From Hoeflea sp. YIM 152468 (lineage in GTDB: Bacteria; Pseudomonadota; Alphaproteobacteria; Rhizobiales; Rhizobiaceae), in the NCBI RefSeq assembly GCF_029210485.1, contig NZ_JARGET010000016.1, forward strand, positions 1 through 64,000: a DNA stretch of 64,000 bases. The letters run 5' to 3'. The notes under the pieces are model-generated. The model worked only from the letters and a program-made list of their open reading frames with translations, was not told the origin of the DNA and searched no databases. Below are positions 11-7,213 of this stretch, one piece after another; the first letter of the stretch is position 1, and each line of letters opens with the position of its first letter. The position numbers and the translations under genes are program-made.

Positions 11-1501
11 GTGAATCAGTCCGCAATCCTCACCGCAAGCAATTTAATGGGTCCTGAGCCTAGGCAGGCCGTGTTTGCCGATATACTCGCGCAGCCCCTG
101 GTGTCCCACGTTAAGGGACCACGACTTGTGGCCGGAAAAGCTGCAACACGCAGCCTTGCGGCGGCATGGGCGAAGCGGTTTGGTGGCGCCGATCCAGGCG
201 TGGAAATTGTTGCCGGTCTCACCATGCCACGACCGCTCGAATCCGAACATATTCTGCTGATCGGCGGGACGGGCGCTGGCAAGACGACGGTCATGGAAAC
301 GATCATGGACGGCGCGATCAAACGCGGTGACCGGCTACTGGCGCTGGACGTGAAGGGCGGCGTAACCGCCCGTTTCCCTGTCGACGACTTTTGTCTGCTG
401 GCACTCGGCGATGGCCGCAGCAGCCGGTGGATGCTTGGTCTAGATATCGTCACGCCCGAAGACGCGGCCGAACTGGCAACAGAAATCATCCGGGAGACAA
501 ATGACCCCTCATGGTCTGCTGGTGCCCGGCAAGTGCTGACCGCGATCCTTGTACTCCTCCAGAGTGAAGCGGCCAAACGCGGAAAAGTATGGTCGTGGAC
601 ACAACTCGATCAGATCCTGTCGAAACCCGTCGCGGAGCTTTTCAGGTTTCTTCGTGAAAGCGATCCCGTTGCCGCCTCGCTGATCAATGTCGAGCAGGAT
701 CAAACACAGCGGCAGGCGATGTCCTTCTACTTCGTTCTGGCTGCCAATGCCGGGCAGATGGCAAAGGCCTTTGCGGCCATGGGCGGGTCTTCGCGAAATG
801 GAACAAAATCACCGGACGTCTCGATCCGGCGATGGGCTCGCGGAGCTGGCAGTGAAAATCTGATCCTGCGCCAGTCACGGCGGCAGCCGGAGCTTTCTGC
901 TGCGATGTCCCGGATTGTGTTGAAGATCGTAGCCGACAACGCCGGTTCGGTATCTTCCGCAGAAGACACAAATCCTCCTGCCACCTGGCTCTTCCTTGAC
1001 GAACTCCCACAACTGGGACGTTTGCCCGCTATACCCCGACTTGCTGCGATCGGTCGCTCCCTTGGCGTGAGGATCGTCGCTGCAATACAGTCTCCGGCAC
1101 AGCTCAAGGAAATCTATGGAGCGGATGGTGCGCAGCACCTGCTTGACAACCTGACGACAAAGATCGTCGGTCGGGTTGCAAGCGGCAGCACCGCAACGGA
1201 AATTTCCTCTTCATGGATCGGCAATCGCACGGTCGCATGGATGGAAGACGCAGGCCTGGGCGTGGGCGGAAAGCCACGGTTGGAGCGGAAGACACAGGAA
1301 ATCCCCGTCGTCGATCCGCAATTCCTTGCCAACGATCTCGGGCTTACCACTCGCTCTGGCAAAAGGCCATGTATCAGAGCACTCGTCATCGGTCATGGTG
1401 ATGTGGCAATGCTGACCTGGCCTGTCGGTCGCTGGAGCGTGCGGCGACCAGCAGATGCCCTGCGTCACGGACACGTCCGCGCGCAAAAGGAGCAAGATTG
1501 A
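11..1501 (+). CDS. Type IV secretion coupling protein (VirD4/TraD-like ATPase), possibly 5'-incomplete
   Basis: This is a DNA-translocating P-loop ATPase of the conjugative coupling protein family, which links the relaxase-DNA complex to the type IV channel. A Walker A motif GGTGAGKTT is at about residues 85-93 and a Walker B segment WLFLDELPQLGR at about 326-337, followed by the IQS motif typical of TraD/TraG ATPases (AAIQSPAQLKEIYG). The GTG start at position 11 is the first available. The frame is open to the window edge and no N-terminal membrane segments are visible, although VirD4-like proteins usually have two. The true start may therefore lie upstream of the window. It stands 433 bases before the relaxase gene on the same strand, supporting a conjugative role. 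Confidence 0.8.
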   Translation: MNQSAILTASNLMGPEPRQAVFADILAQPLVSHVKGPRLVAGKAATRSLAAAWAKRFGGADPGVEIVAGLTMPRPLESEHILLIGGTGAGKTTVMETIMDGAIKRGDRLLALDVKGGVTARFPVDDFCLLALGDGRSSRWMLGLDIVTPEDAAELATEIIRETNDPSWSAGARQVLTAILVLLQSEAAKRGKVWSWTQLDQILSKPVAELFRFLRESDPVAASLINVEQDQTQRQAMSFYFVLAANAGQMAKAFAAMGGSSRNGTKSPDVSIRRWARGAGSENLILRQSRRQPELSAAMSRIVLKIVADNAGSVSSAEDTNPPATWLFLDELPQLGRLPAIPRLAAIGRSLGVRIVAAIQSPAQLKEIYGADGAQHLLDNLTTKIVGRVASGSTATEISSSWIGNRTVAWMEDAGLGVGGKPRLERKTQEIPVVDPQFLANDLGLTTRSGKRPCIRALVIGHGDVAMLTWPVGRWSVRRPADALRHGHVRAQKEQD

Positions 1502-1934: not shown

Positions 1935-4556
1935 ATGGTGGCAACCTGGGACCCCGCAGCAAGCGCGGAATACTATACGAAGCAGACTGCGTACTACGCG
2001 ACCGAAACAGGCGCTGAGCCGCGCGGCGAGTGGTATGCCCCGGCAGGCGATCATGGCCTTGTCGACGGCACCGTTGTAGAGGCGGATCTATTCGAGCGTC
2101 TGTTCTCCGGCAAGGATACCGCCGGACAATCTCTTGTCACGAATGGCGGCGGGCGAATTGACCGTGTTCCGGCTTTCGATGTGACGCTGTCTGCACCGCG
2201 GTCCGTTTCTTTGATGTGGGCGCTCGGGGATGCGGAGACGCGATCCGCCATCGAAACTGCGCATGCGGATGCCGTTCGCCAGACACTCCAGCTTATAGAA
2301 AAGGAAGCGGCGTTTGCCCGGCGCGGTCAGGGCGGTAGCCGGATCGAACGGATCGCCTTGTCGGCAGCACTCTTCCGGCATGGTGAAAGCAGGCCCGCAG
2401 AGCATGCTGATGGCTTCACCTTTGCCGATCCGAACCTCCACACCCATTGCGTGATTCTCAACCTTGCGACGCGGTCGGACAAAACGATCGGAGCACTGCA
2501 TTCAACTGTCTTGCGCGACTGGAAGATGGCCGCGGGGGCCACCTATCACGCAGCTCTCGCAGCAGGCGTGATGAAGGCGGGGCTTGAGATTGACCGCATT
2601 GGGTCGAACGGCGTCTTCGAGATTGCAGGCGTGGCTGAAGAAGCGATTACCTATTTCTCTGCCCGACGTCAGGAAATCCTGGAAGAGCTGCAGGTGGCAG
2701 GTGGGAGCACTGAATGGTCGGCTGCTCTTGCTGCAATGATTGCGCGGTCAAGCCGCAAGGCGAAGGACAAGGACGCCGCTGACCGGGAACTGGCCTGGCG
2801 AGATGCGGCTAGCCGTATCGGTTTTGCGGCAGAGGCTGACATTGAAAACCACCGCCGCTCCTTTGAAAATGCAGATCGAAAGAACGAAGCTGTTACCAAA
2901 CGGCTGGCAGCCATTCCCGCGAAGCTCACCGAAACCAAAAGTGTTTTTGAGCGCCGCGATGTTGTGCGTGCCGTAGCAGAAGCCCTTGTCGGATCTGGCC
3001 GCGGGGCTGAGCGCATTGAAGCAGAGGTGTCCAGCCTGCTGGAGACAGCTCAGGTCGTGGAACTTGGCCGCGACCGGATTGGCCTTCCACGTTATTCGAC
3101 GCCGGAGATGATCCGGATCGAGCGCGAAGTGGTCGAGATGGCAGCTCGTATGGCGAAATCCCCCGGCTTCCAGATCGATAGCGAACGCCTTGTTGCCGAC
3201 TGTCGCAAGCGCTGGCTGAGCGAAGAACAGCAGATTGCAGTCACATATGCGACCGGCGAAACGGGGATCGTGGCGATAGAGGGAGCGCCCGGGACCGGCA
3301 AGACGACCTTGCTTGCTCCTGCCGTATCAGCATGGAAGGCAGCCGGCTTCCGTGTGGTTGGCGCTGCGACTGCATGGAAAGTCGCAACGGCCCTTCGCGA
3401 CGATCTCGATATTGAGGCGCGAGCCACAGCCTCCTGGCTTGCCAGGTCAGGACATGGACAGCTGTTCCTCGACGCAAAATCTGTGCTCATCGTCGATGAA
3501 GCGGGACTCTTGTCTTCAAGGGAGATGCACGGGCTGCTGACTGCGGCCCGTGATGCAGGGGCGAAAGTGCTTCTTGCCGGCGATCGCGGCCAGCTGCAGG
3601 CGATCGGCGCCGGTTCGGGCTTGAGGGTTGTTGCCGAAGCGATCGAGGCTGTGCGTGTTCAAACCATTGTTCGGCAACGCGAGGCCTGGGCGCGCGATGC
3701 CATGGCAGCCTTTGGTCGCGGTGAGGCTGACAAAGCACTTGCCGCGTTTGCCGAGCGAAACCTGTTGCTTGAAGCGGATGGTGAGAAGGCAGCTGTCAAG
3801 GCTGTGGTTGATCGTGTCGACCAATACCTCGGGTCGTCAAGGCCGAACTCCTTCCTGATCGTCGCGAAAACCAATACCGAAGTGGCCGCGATCAGCAGAG
3901 AGGTCCGTACACGCCTTCGCGAAAAACAGATCATCCGGGGCGAGGACATCGCGATCGATGCCGTTACCCCGTCCCGACATGCAAGCCGTATCGACATCGC
4001 CGCAGGCGACCAAATTCGCTTTCTGGTCCGCAATGACAGGATCGGCGTGATCAACGGCACAGTCGGCCGGGTGATTGCCGTGGAGCCTTTTGATCGCGGC
4101 ACGGACAAAACACCCCGCAAGCACGCAATCCTCACAGCAAGGATCGGTGACAGGATCGTCCAGTTCAACAGCTCCGAGCTTGCAGACGAGCAGGGCCGCA
4201 CGAAATTTGCGCTTGCCTATGCCTCGACAATCTACGGTGCCCAGGGTGCGACCGTCGAGCAAGCCGTTGTTCTCGTCAATCCTGCCTTCGACCGGCATGA
4301 CATCTATGTCGCAGCAAGCCGCGCCAGGGGCGAAACCGCTCTGGTCGTGGATCGTCGCCGGATCGATCGGGAGATGGCAGCGGCAGGTTTGAACCCGTCT
4401 GAGCCGGACCAGGATAGCCGCAGGCGTTGGCTCGGCGAGCGCATGGCAATCGCGCATATCAAGCAGACAACACTCGACTATCTGCCGACCGGACGCGATG
4501 CGCCCGAGCCAGAGCCCGTCCGAAGCAGGACCTGGGAGACTGGCCATGCGTTCTGA
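1935..4556 (+). CDS. MobF/TrwC-family conjugative relaxase-helicase
   Basis: The N-terminal domain is a TrwC/TraI relaxase. It has paired tyrosines at residues 13-14 and 20-21, matching the catalytic YY arrangement of MobF enzymes, and a metal-binding histidine motif (NLHTHC) near residues 166-172. The C-terminal half is a superfamily 1 helicase with Walker A GAPGTGKTT near residue 450, Walker B VLIVDEAG near 517, and a UvrD-like C-terminal region. It would nick oriT, stay bound to the 5' end and unwind the transferred strand. The ATG at 1935 is preceded by a clear AAAGGAG site. At 873 residues it is within the usual range for the family. The stop overlaps the next small gene by 11 bases, indicating translational linkage. 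Confidence 0.9.
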   Translation: MVATWDPAASAEYYTKQTAYYATETGAEPRGEWYAPAGDHGLVDGTVVEADLFERLFSGKDTAGQSLVTNGGGRIDRVPAFDVTLSAPRSVSLMWALGDAETRSAIETAHADAVRQTLQLIEKEAAFARRGQGGSRIERIALSAALFRHGESRPAEHADGFTFADPNLHTHCVILNLATRSDKTIGALHSTVLRDWKMAAGATYHAALAAGVMKAGLEIDRIGSNGVFEIAGVAEEAITYFSARRQEILEELQVAGGSTEWSAALAAMIARSSRKAKDKDAADRELAWRDAASRIGFAAEADIENHRRSFENADRKNEAVTKRLAAIPAKLTETKSVFERRDVVRAVAEALVGSGRGAERIEAEVSSLLETAQVVELGRDRIGLPRYSTPEMIRIEREVVEMAARMAKSPGFQIDSERLVADCRKRWLSEEQQIAVTYATGETGIVAIEGAPGTGKTTLLAPAVSAWKAAGFRVVGAATAWKVATALRDDLDIEARATASWLARSGHGQLFLDAKSVLIVDEAGLLSSREMHGLLTAARDAGAKVLLAGDRGQLQAIGAGSGLRVVAEAIEAVRVQTIVRQREAWARDAMAAFGRGEADKALAAFAERNLLLEADGEKAAVKAVVDRVDQYLGSSRPNSFLIVAKTNTEVAAISREVRTRLREKQIIRGEDIAIDAVTPSRHASRIDIAAGDQIRFLVRNDRIGVINGTVGRVIAVEPFDRGTDKTPRKHAILTARIGDRIVQFNSSELADEQGRTKFALAYASTIYGAQGATVEQAVVLVNPAFDRHDIYVAASRARGETALVVDRRRIDREMAAAGLNPSEPDQDSRRRWLGERMAIAHIKQTTLDYLPTGRDAPEPEPVRSRTWETGHAF

Positions 4557-4840: not shown

Positions 4841-5419
4841 ATGAATATGCATCTCAATCCCACCGCGATTTCGACGGCAAGAACCTATGGTTCCGATAAG
4901 CCGTCAGATGAAGCGCTTACAAACTGGCCGCTGCGCAGCATCGTCAACGATACGAAGACGCGCCCCTTCTGTGGTCCGACGGCTGTTGCCGCCATCACGC
5001 GTCAGCCGATCTCGATTGTAAAGGATGCCTTTCGGCTTGCCCGGTTTGGAAAGCGCTGGATTGAATTCGATCGCTCACCCGCAATCATGGGCGTCACACT
5101 GGCTGAAACCTACCATGTCATGAACACCTTCGGGTTCGGGGGAGGCTGGGAATCCTTTGATCGGGCTCCGAGCCTTGCCGCATGGCTCGAAACCCGAACC
5201 GGCATTGCGCGCACTCATCCTGTCATTGTCCATGTTACTGGCCATCTGGTGGCCGTACGCGGCTATGAGTTCTGCGACACCTTCTCAAAGGGCCTGGTGG
5301 TCGATGCGGATGAAGCTCCCGGCCGGCGCAAGAAGGTAAAGGACGTCTTTGTCGTGACCGGCAGGACCCCGCGTGCAGCCCATATCCCGTCAAAGAGCGG
5401 CAGGATGGTGGAGCCATGA
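4841..5419 (+). CDS. Putative papain/C39-like cysteine peptidase of the mobile element
   Basis: This 192-residue protein begins behind a good AAAGGAAG site. It has an FCGPTAVAAI motif with cysteine at residue 44, which resembles the nucleophile segment of C39-like and papain-fold peptidases (CGPTxxA). A later VTGHLVAVRG segment has histidine at 135 in the context usual for the second catalytic residue, followed by an acidic segment (VVDADEA). There is no signal peptide or membrane segment, so it should act in the cytoplasm or travel with the conjugation apparatus. It lies between relaxase and recombinase genes. The peptidase assignment rests on motif pattern only; it could be a non-catalytic relative. 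The substrate is unknown. Confidence 0.6.
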   Translation: MNMHLNPTAISTARTYGSDKPSDEALTNWPLRSIVNDTKTRPFCGPTAVAAITRQPISIVKDAFRLARFGKRWIEFDRSPAIMGVTLAETYHVMNTFGFGGGWESFDRAPSLAAWLETRTGIARTHPVIVHVTGHLVAVRGYEFCDTFSKGLVVDADEAPGRRKKVKDVFVVTGRTPRAAHIPSKSGRMVEP

Positions 5420-5501
5420 GCGGGCTCACTAAAGTGCCGGACATCTTCTGTGTTTGGCGGTATCCCTTGAACGGGCAACGACAATCCGGAGACATCAGAT
5501 C

Positions 5502-7166
5502 ATGAACAAATCAATCAGAGGCAAAAACGTTGAGATAGATCTCGCTCCCACATTGCGTGTCGCTGCCTACCTGCGAGTGTCGACCGGACGCCAGGCGGAT
5601 TCTGATCTGTCGATCCCGGACCAGAGAAAACAGATCTCCGGATTCTGCACATCGAAAGTCTGGCAGATTGTCGAGGAGTTCGTTGAATCCGGCGCCTCTG
5701 CGACAGATGACACCCGGCCCGAATTCCAGAGAATGATCGAACGCGCAACGGACGGCGATCACCCTTTTGATGTCATCGTCGTCCATTCATATTCACGGTT
5801 CTTCCGTGACAGCTTTCAACTTGAGTTCTATCTTAGACGTCTCGCGAAGGCTGGCGTCCGACTTGTGTCAATTACGCAAGAACTCAATGACGATCCGGCC
5901 CAGGTCATGATGCGCCAGGTGATCGCGCTCTTTGACGAGTACCAGAGCAAAGAGAACGCAAAGCACGTTTTGCGCGCCATGAAAGAGAATGCCCGCCAAG
6001 GCTTCCACAACGGGTCACCGGTTCCTCTGGGCTACAGGGCGGTTGAAGTGGAACGTCGCGGAACCAAGATCAAAAAGAAACTTGAAATTGACCCCGTGGA
6101 TGCCGAAACTATCCGGTATATTTACAAGCTCTATTTGTATGGCGATGGCAAATCCGGCCCGCTTGGCATCAAGGAAATCGTCAAGCGTCTGAACGGCGAA
6201 GGATACCGAACCAAACGCAATTCGAGATTTGGCGTTGGCACCTTGCACGCCATCCTGACCAACCGCGTCTATATCGGCGAATGGGTCTTCAATCGACGGG
6301 ATTCCAAGACTTTCAAAGACAAGCCGGTTACTGAACATATCATGGTGCCGGTGCCAGCCATCATCGAGCGGTCGGAATTTGATAATGTTCAACAGACACT
6401 CCGTCAGCGCAATCCGCGTGTGACGCCACCCCGAGTCACGACAGGACCGATCCTCCTGACCGGTCTTGCAATCTGCGCGACCTGTGGCGGCGGGATGACG
6501 TTGAGGACAGGAACTTCGCGCTCCGGAAAGATACACCGCTACTACACCTGTTCAAATGCGGCGCGGGCGGGCAAATCTGCATGCAAGGGACGCTCAATCA
6601 GGATGGATACCCTCGACACGCTTGTCGTCGAAAACCTATCGGAACGGCTGTTCACCTCGGAACGCCTCGCCGACATACTGTCAGCGATTTCTGCAAATCG
6701 TGCTGCCAAGTCCGCGGAAGTCGATCAACGCGTGATCCGTTTGCAGAGCGAACTCACTGACACGGAAACCCGACTGAAACGGATCTACTCGATGGTCGAG
6801 GACGGCAGCGCGGAAATGGACGACATTCTTCATGAACGCATCACTTCACTCAAGCTTGACCGTGATCGCCTGATGACCTCACTTGAACGGATAAGAACCC
6901 ATGCAGTCCCGGCTACCGATATTCCGCCAGCCGTAATCGAGGAGTTCGGGCGCATGATGCGCGAAAACATATCGACCGGCGAAATCCCCTTCAGGAAAGC
7001 CTACCTCAAATCCGTTGTCGACCAGGTGATTGTCGACGACAAACAGATAAGGATCATCGGTTCAAAACGCACCATTGAAAGCGCAGTATTCGGCGGCAAA
7101 AAATTTTCCCATGGTGTTCGCAGTTTTGAACGGAAGTGGCGCGCCCGAAAGGATTCGAACCTCTGA
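5502..7166 (+). CDS. Large serine recombinase (site-specific integrase)
   Basis: The 554-residue protein has the resolvase/invertase catalytic domain at its N-terminus (AAYLRVSTGRQADSD, nucleophile Ser27), a recombinase domain near residues 170-300, a zinc ribbon (CATCGGGM, later YYTC and SACKG) near 325-365, and a coiled-coil around 400-470. This is the architecture of phage- and ICE-type large serine integrases. The ATG at 5502 has GGAG upstream; an earlier in-frame start at 5454 lacks a site. The last ten codons, ending in the residues KDSNL, are read through the 3' half of the tRNA-Arg gene on the other strand, and the stop is supplied by the tRNA T-arm. This places the integrase at the element edge. 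Serine integrases using a tRNA target are less usual than tyrosine integrases. Confidence 0.9.
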   Translation: MNKSIRGKNVEIDLAPTLRVAAYLRVSTGRQADSDLSIPDQRKQISGFCTSKVWQIVEEFVESGASATDDTRPEFQRMIERATDGDHPFDVIVVHSYSRFFRDSFQLEFYLRRLAKAGVRLVSITQELNDDPAQVMMRQVIALFDEYQSKENAKHVLRAMKENARQGFHNGSPVPLGYRAVEVERRGTKIKKKLEIDPVDAETIRYIYKLYLYGDGKSGPLGIKEIVKRLNGEGYRTKRNSRFGVGTLHAILTNRVYIGEWVFNRRDSKTFKDKPVTEHIMVPVPAIIERSEFDNVQQTLRQRNPRVTPPRVTTGPILLTGLAICATCGGGMTLRTGTSRSGKIHRYYTCSNAARAGKSACKGRSIRMDTLDTLVVENLSERLFTSERLADILSAISANRAAKSAEVDQRVIRLQSELTDTETRLKRIYSMVEDGSAEMDDILHERITSLKLDRDRLMTSLERIRTHAVPATDIPPAVIEEFGRMMRENISTGEIPFRKAYLKSVVDQVIVDDKQIRIIGSKRTIESAVFGGKKFSHGVRSFERKWRARKDSNL

Positions 7167-7213
7167 CCCCCAGATTCGTAGTCTGGTGCTCTATCCAGCT
7201 GAGCTACGGGCGC
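7137..7213 (-). tRNA. tRNA-Arg (anticodon ACG), likely att site of the element
   Basis: The minus strand folds into a complete cloverleaf: acceptor stem GCGCCCG/CGGGCGC without mismatch, D-arm GCTC/GAGC, anticodon stem CCAGA/TCTGG with loop CTACGAA giving anticodon ACG, and T-arm with TTCGAAT loop. Discriminator G is followed by an encoded CCA (7139-7137). The 5' end faces chromosomal genes; the 3' end faces the recombinase gene, which overlaps it by 30 bases. This polarity fits integration into the tRNA 3' end with reconstitution of the gene by element-borne sequence. Confidence 0.95.

Follow-up and report, generated by a model that had tools for sequence, protein, structure and literature searches.

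In this study, we analyzed a 64,000-nucleotide stretch of the Hoeflea sp. YIM 152468 genome (contig NZ_JARGET010000016.1, positions 1 to 64,000; hereafter the window, which is the first 64 kb of contig C8 in a genome of 4.27 Mb and 40 contigs). We propose that a serine integrase gene in this window contains the attachment site (attP) of the conjugative-type element that carries it, and that integration of the element at the CCA end of a tRNA gene very probably swaps the C-terminus of the integrase. In the proposed mechanism, the element circle would carry a continuous gene in which 545 residues are followed by Trp546 at the crossover and then by a native tail. The integrase would recombine the TGGCGC of attP with the TGGCGC at the CCA end of the tRNA gene, the native tail would be shifted to the opposite element end, and the integrase frame would then enter the tRNA gene, where it would pick up a short replacement tail and a stop codon supplied by the host. 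On integration, the enzyme apparently gives up the last 18 amino acids of its native form and takes its ending and stop from the host gene. The evidence, all read from DNA, comprises the overlap of the integrase and tRNA genes, a family-wide coincidence of a TGG codon with the tRNA CCA end, the att sites, an inverted-repeat attP, and a conserved in-frame tail with its stop.

The recombinase open reading frame (ORF) lies on the plus strand with an ATG at 5502, a further-upstream TTG start at 5454, and a TGA stop at 7164-7166, and the sole tRNA call of the window, made by ARAGORN, is a tRNA-Arg(acg) on the minus strand. The first-pass annotation, made from the sequence alone, had reported a 30-base overlap of the two genes, and the ARAGORN call and the ORF bear this out: 7137-7166 is common to both and holds nine sense codons plus the stop. 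Its statement that the 3' end of the integrase gene is shared with the att site also holds, the TGGCGC crossover block lying inside the gene end. In this block, the Trp-Arg codons of the integrase are the CCA end and the first acceptor bases of the tRNA, and because TGG CGC matches the CCA end the tRNA would stay whole after integration. The protein has Resolvase, Recombinase and Zn_ribbon_recom domains, all three above the Pfam cut-offs, and its model shows long helices at residues 386-467, in line with the helical C-terminal region of large serine integrases. Ser27 of the catalytic domain, which we take to be the nucleophile, is invariant in 25 sequences.

The overlap with a tRNA gene is a trait of the family and not a matter of chance. 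Integrase matches were found in 19 of 101 relatives (genome search, E 1e-20) and in 36 of 397 genomes of the order (genome search, E 1e-100), and a genome-contig scan gave 57 relatives. In a set of 109 loci (the window locus, search loci, and plasmid, phage and viral records, with at least two duplicates, L005/L023 and L006/L024), the TGG codon of the integrase and the 3' end of an opposite-strand tRNA gene fall on exactly the same bases in 84. These tRNA genes are of four isotypes (Arg 51, Glu 19, Ser 11, Asn 3), and the distance from the first base of the Trp codon to the integrase stop varies with the tRNA, between 15 and 558 nt. Since the Trp codon is the tRNA 3' CCA, the stop and last residues are host-derived, and the integrated integrase evidently has no stop of its own. 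As for the remaining 25 loci, seven have no coverage of the C-terminus, one yielded no in-frame Trp codon, and 17 extend as far as the Trp codon but lack a complete tRNA; the 17 comprise nine in which the 3' part of a tRNA is present, in most cases interrupted near the anticodon, four contig ends, and L038, L149, L151 and L152. The contigs of L040, L041, L236 and L247 stop at TGGCGC or one base past it, as would be expected if the assembly forks where integrated and excised, or multiple, junctions coexist. Among distant serine recombinases (<30% identity; L002, L019, L020, L021), three have no tRNA at their locus; in the fourth, L021, a tRNA-Met is located about 1.1 kb beyond the aligned part, a range set by the alignment and not by the true gene end.

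The tRNA isotype is inherited but switching, since it changes eight times on a FastTree tree of 90 integrases, for which the minimum is 3 and the shuffled mean 27.8. An occurrence of the same recombinase at unrelated sites had been named at the outset as a finding that would refute the first-pass reading. This applies only in a limited sense: near-identical Ancylobacter/Xanthobacter integrases (L047/L048 group) occupy both Glu and Arg tRNA genes, and in these, too, the insertion is at the CCA end. Such near-identical members on different isotypes, all entering through the CCA-end TGG, may be of use in broad-target integration.

The position of the crossover was narrowed down in Sinorhizobium meliloti, in which pSymB of strain ml21 (CP140937) was compared with the empty pSymB of ml66, SM11 and ml28. 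The island is 38.5 kb long with exact ends, and the flank alignments share 18 bp. The attB site reads GAAAGAC-TGGCGCACCCGACAGGAT-TCGAACC, attL reads GAAAGAC-TGGCGCGCCCGAGAGGAT-GAAACTGGGCACT, and attR reads AGTGCCCAGTTTTGTTCGTAAG-TGGCGCACCCGACAGGAT-TCGAACC. The attR sequence equals attB, and mismatches between attL and attB occur at positions 7 and 13; because the first of these is at position 7, the crossover is placed within TGGCGC. Large serine integrases recombine at a central dinucleotide, and the junctions narrow the crossover to the 6 nt of this block. The deduced attP has a large inverted repeat (AGTGCCCAGTTT / AAACTGGGCACT) around the crossover, and its left arm is integrase coding sequence. 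In the Hoeflea genome, attL was located at C14:30098 on the minus strand. It (TGGCGCACCTCTGAGG) and attR (TGGCGCGCCCGAAAGG) are identical through TGGCGC and diverge at position 7. In this case the att sites were set against related uninterrupted sites: three genus members have an uninterrupted tRNA-Arg(acg) whose downstream DNA is homologous to the left flank of attL, matching at 75% up to the tRNA in G010, at 79% to about 56 nt short of it in G013, and at 69% to about 27 nt short of it in G002. A GntR flank in G003 was rejected as a marker of the left end, as that gene is elsewhere in G000. Contig C14 (reversed) was linked to C8 by a 310-bp, 67% match in G017 together with window synteny, leaving a gap of about 4 kb, and the element would measure roughly 41 kb, estimated across this gap.

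These junctions bear directly on the first-pass view that the tRNA 3' half is the attachment core, in which case the element would restore a duplicated tRNA half, as in classical tRNA gene (tDNA) islands. Nine loci in which the integrase is followed by only the tRNA 3' part would fit such a core, yet both the Hoeflea and the S. meliloti attL diverge from attB after TGGCGC, the duplicated block is only about 6 nt, and the second copy of the tRNA 3' end that this view predicts is missing, as a 35-base stretch of the tRNA 3' part has no other match with up to 3 mismatches in the own genome. The breaks near the anticodon fit nested tyrosine-integrase islands, judging from L049, one of the nine. 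We therefore consider a tRNA-half core scarcely credible. In L049, the integrase and a tRNA 3' part broken near the anticodon are followed by about 9 kb and then by a Phage_integrase (tyrosine) gene that ends directly before a restored tRNA-Arg, so that a second island (L049:11600-20934) is nested in the same tRNA-Arg; similar breaks are seen in L013, L054, L147, L232, L243, L244 and L258. This arrangement suggests that two integrase classes may stack in one tRNA gene.

On the far side of the element, the right arm continues the integrase frame into a native tail, and the gene is therefore apparently complete only in the circle. Right arms in the integrase frame mostly encode W-R-A-x-Q-[DN]-[KE]-T-A-N-[TS]-Y-V-I-E-[IV]-x-x-stop. 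For the window element, the predicted circle tail is WRTSEDKDANIYAIEISI-stop (Trp546 included) and the integrated tail WRARKDSNL-stop; for S. meliloti they are KWRAREDETGHSYVIVAPIHF-stop, with the attL bases of the crossover block, and KWRTRQDSNL-stop. A C-terminus that differs between the integrated and circular forms, as anticipated in the first-pass annotation, is to be expected from the sequence, although the conserved tail coding at the far element end was beyond the reach of that annotation. In 31 distinct arms from 30 kept loci, for which the arm was the sole selection criterion, Tyr is present at codon 12 in 30, Glu at codon 15 in 28, and the stop at codon 19 in 22. Over codons 12-16, the ratio of nonsynonymous to synonymous polymorphism (pN/pS) is 0.35; beyond the stop it is 0.91, and the other frames give 0.54 and 1.04. 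In a wider set of 57 arms, which includes chance matches and was found in part with a pattern containing two bases of codon 12, 50 arms have Tyr12 and 40 have the stop at codon 19, with pN/pS at 0.49 versus a column-permuted median of 0.79.

It could be argued that the right arm is conserved as DNA only, as an attP arm plus an accessory site, and that the frame is open only by coincidence. DNA constraint is enough to account for codons 1-11, which overlap the inverted repeat, and the 0.54 of the +1 frame is likewise below 1. However, variation in codons 12-16 is mostly synonymous, the stop recurs at codon 19, diversity climbs sharply just beyond it, and only 32 of 2000 column permutations gave a ratio as low as that of the wider set; we regard this explanation as very improbable.

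A stronger competitor, to which we give only slightly less than an even chance, is that the swap is neutral, the integrase overlapping attP for compactness only and both protein forms working alike. The borrowed tails range from a few residues to far past the tRNA, and because their length varies so widely the integrated enzyme seemingly tolerates any tail. The AlphaFold model (mean pLDDT, the predicted local distance difference test, 72.9; pTM, the predicted template modeling score, only 0.36) is confident to about residue 530, except for some loops and the N-terminus, and falls below 50 over residues 533-554. A flexible linker seems to connect the exchanged tail to the rest of the protein, and with such low confidence over these residues a swap need not disturb the integrase fold. 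Against neutrality stand the conservation of the native tail in amino acids beyond the DNA repeat, with its stop mostly at one place, and passages in PMC4701971 and PMC6070905 according to which the swapped integrase of phage Mx8 differs in activity.

It is also conceivable that the integrated integrase is dead, self-inactivated like the archaeal suicidal integrases, and that excision takes place via a helper. The native tail would indeed be lost on integration, and related elements or relics are found in tandem. Nevertheless, the integrated frame is open in most of the matches listed, which suggests continued selection, and the tail alone is removed and no catalytic domain, so that this outcome seems improbable. 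Returning to a swap with functional consequences, the circle presumably exists and is translated as one gene, and its product presumably differs in activity from the integrated form. Most likely, the full-length form would favor integration when a new host is entered, excision would be served or limited by the swapped form, and by analogy with Mx8 the native tail likely tunes synapsis or directionality. A stricter version, in which the circle-only tail confers integration competence and integration erases it, leaving a form set for excision or silence, is a tentative and rather unlikely idea. If it were true, the rearrangement of the DNA itself would set directionality, either in place of a separate directionality factor or alongside one, throughout a serine family specialized on tRNA CCA ends.

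The pairing of right arms with integrases was searched with the pattern TGGCGCNCC-N10-AAANTGCGAACNCC, built from the S. meliloti arm and one G017 arm. With 2 mismatches, it occurs in 19 of 23 integrase-bearing genomes or records (G017 included), at 39 places versus 2 in a reversed control, and its one match in the own genome is the arm on C14. Among the 397 order genomes, 36 have the integrase, 54 the arm and 14 both (hypergeometric P 6e-5, kinship ignored). Left and right arms of ten elements fit each other better in their own pairs than when shuffled, both with the nearest arm (132 vs a shuffled mean of 125.5; 128/5000 as high) and with the farthest arm in G048, G300 and G118 (138 vs 129.6; 29/5000 as high); these two fixed rules replaced an earlier test (134 vs 125.4, 25/5000) in which arms had been hand-picked in genomes with more than one. 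Integrase and arm are on the same contig, with the expected strand and side, in G017, G048, G300, G376, G446, G268, G116, G118 and S. meliloti, and on separate contigs in several other genomes. G017 has two left arms, one of them 30 kb from the integrase; the outer one, though decayed, is still tail-like and shows similarity to the Hoeflea left arm (53 bp, 85%). A 7-base repeat run (GAGCATT) adjoins the decayed attL arm at the G017 left island end (L107/L121).

Several observations weigh against the proposed mechanism. The main gap in the evidence is that no intact full-length integrase joined to a native tail was found among 66 genomes. In six of them, an integrase-type end is joined to a right arm in an attP-like manner at seven places in all, each with a truncated or unrecognizable integrase upstream: the L270 join (G111) has 212 in-frame residues before the tail that match the integrase from residue 364, the L269 join has 198 with a weaker match, and the others are short or without a recognizable integrase. 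These joins look like tandem or nested elements. The arm is without a close integrase in 40 of the 54 arm-bearing genomes, in part through chance matches and in part probably through decayed or other-subfamily islands, and at 3 mismatches the reversed control matches 29 genomes. Only 4 of 18 genomes with tRNA-Ser, Asn and some Arg subfamilies have the pattern; for the tRNA-Ser subfamily, the sole plausible arm and tail (WRAMNVETGHFSFTIPL-stop) is in G047 (L299). In G110 (L038; a complete chromosome, provided that C1 is the record in question), the two arms are distant and on the opposite strand, in G112 the arm is possibly on the wrong side of the integrase (contig identity being assumed), and the viral contigs gave one integrase locus and no exact right-arm match. 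The stop at codon 19 is absent in 9 of the 31 tails, L296 has its stop at codon 5, and the selection tests are only indicative because related sequences are not independent. Lastly, the C14-C8 link depends on the single G017 match across unassembled DNA.

Relic junctions inside islands, at about C14:20321 in G000 (L166) and about C1:3778668 in G017, have an integrase-type end, a few bases, and then another right arm with a native tail, which suggests repeated accretion at one tRNA. Plasmid copies were rejected as circular attP, since L151 has IS1326 sequence from the core onward and L149 is without a right arm.

C-terminal exchange on integration, att sites within genes and gene splitting are already known individually. 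The Mx8 integrase gene contains attP, and integration replaces 112 C-terminal residues by 13 and alters activity, the swapped form being described in sections of the two papers as less active (PMC4701971) or changed in specificity (PMC6070905). The window integrase resembles Mx8 Int in that its gene contains attP and its native C-terminus, encoded across attP, would be replaced by another on integration, as far as sequence can tell. However, Mx8 Int is a tyrosine recombinase with a long native tail, whereas here a serine family of many genera takes its substitute tail from antisense tRNA. Serine integrases of streptococcal integrative and conjugative elements (ICEs) at rumA have another length and C-terminus when excised (excerpts of PMC4701971; PMC5357655), and the integrative and mobilizable element IME_Spy2096_SNF2 has its att site inside the serine integrase gene (PMC5357655). 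These share an att site within a serine integrase gene, but their targets are protein-coding, and the sections at hand describe no tRNA, conserved native tail or inverted-repeat attP. Archaeal SSV-type integrases, like the present one, have the target site within their own gene; they are tyrosine recombinases split in two with the catalytic domain separated, a splitting called exclusive to archaea in part of a review (PMC8371274), whereas here a serine integrase would exchange only about 18 residues. As in tDNA islands (Islander), attB is inside a tRNA gene that stays intact, but the element brings no tRNA 3' part as a replacement, and no more than the ~6 nt exchanged is displaced. The closest solved sequences are those of serine integrases, with SPbeta SprA (YokA) among them (9dxh, E 1.4e-16, profile positions 49-472), and the match stops short of the exchanged C-terminal region.

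The first-pass annotation had called a tRNA-directed serine integrase notable, and this is supported by a passage in PMC4383910 (2014) stating that serine integrases were not known to specify tRNA genes, against which the present family stands; a mycobacterial survey mentions tRNA sites for tyrosine systems in the portion available (PMC10654092). In the portions of the literature searched, we found no tRNA-targeting serine integrase with a tail swap, which is no proof of absence. What is new is the combination, in a broad and mainly alphaproteobacterial serine family that keeps a conserved native tail at the opposite end of the element. Such a family would offer a natural test of the extreme C-terminus of serine integrases, with one enzyme expected in two forms that differ solely in a tail chosen by the state of the DNA. 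It also carries a warning for annotation, because the deposited C-termini of integrated members (RARKDSNL and similar) are antisense tRNA and not native protein.

The features of the window and of the far element end are listed in Table 1. The coupling protein and the TrwC-type relaxase upstream of the integrase indicate an element of the conjugative or mobilizable kind. A search of a defense library gave no match for the integrase.

Table 1. Coordinates of the integrase, the attachment site parts and neighboring element genes
Feature	Position	Strand	Remarks
Serine integrase gene, integrated form, 554 aa	5502..7166	+	Resolvase, Recombinase, Zn ribbon, helical region
Integrase residues 546-554 (WRARKDSNL) and stop	within 5502..7166	+	Read from tRNA sequence
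Left arm of attP inverted repeat (GGTGTTCGCAGTTTT)	7113..7127	+	Within integrase coding sequence
Partner (right) arm, ...AAAGATGCGAACATC	own-genome contig C14:30066-30098	minus	
Crossover block TGGCGC	7137..7142	.	Common to attB, attL and attR at the junction
tRNA-Arg(ACG) at attR	7137..7213	-	Chromosomal except (part of) the crossover block
Borrowed integrase C-terminus and stop (ARKDSNL-stop)	7143..7166	+	Host tRNA DNA in integrase frame
TrwC-type relaxase-helicase of the element	1935..4556	+	
TrwB/TraD-type coupling protein of the element	11..1501	+	
192-aa ORF between relaxase and integrase	4841..5419	+	No match in Pfam, NCBIfam or PADLOC

Inside the S. meliloti serine-integrase island, a gene annotated as 'site-specific integrase' is located at L148:8898-10124. 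In clinical Enterobacter/Klebsiella plasmids (L151, NZ_CP011583.1, and H6-H10), the integrase is identical, over the part compared, to that of the alphaproteobacterial loci L008 and L241, and the IS1326 sequence starts at the att core of this plasmid integrase.
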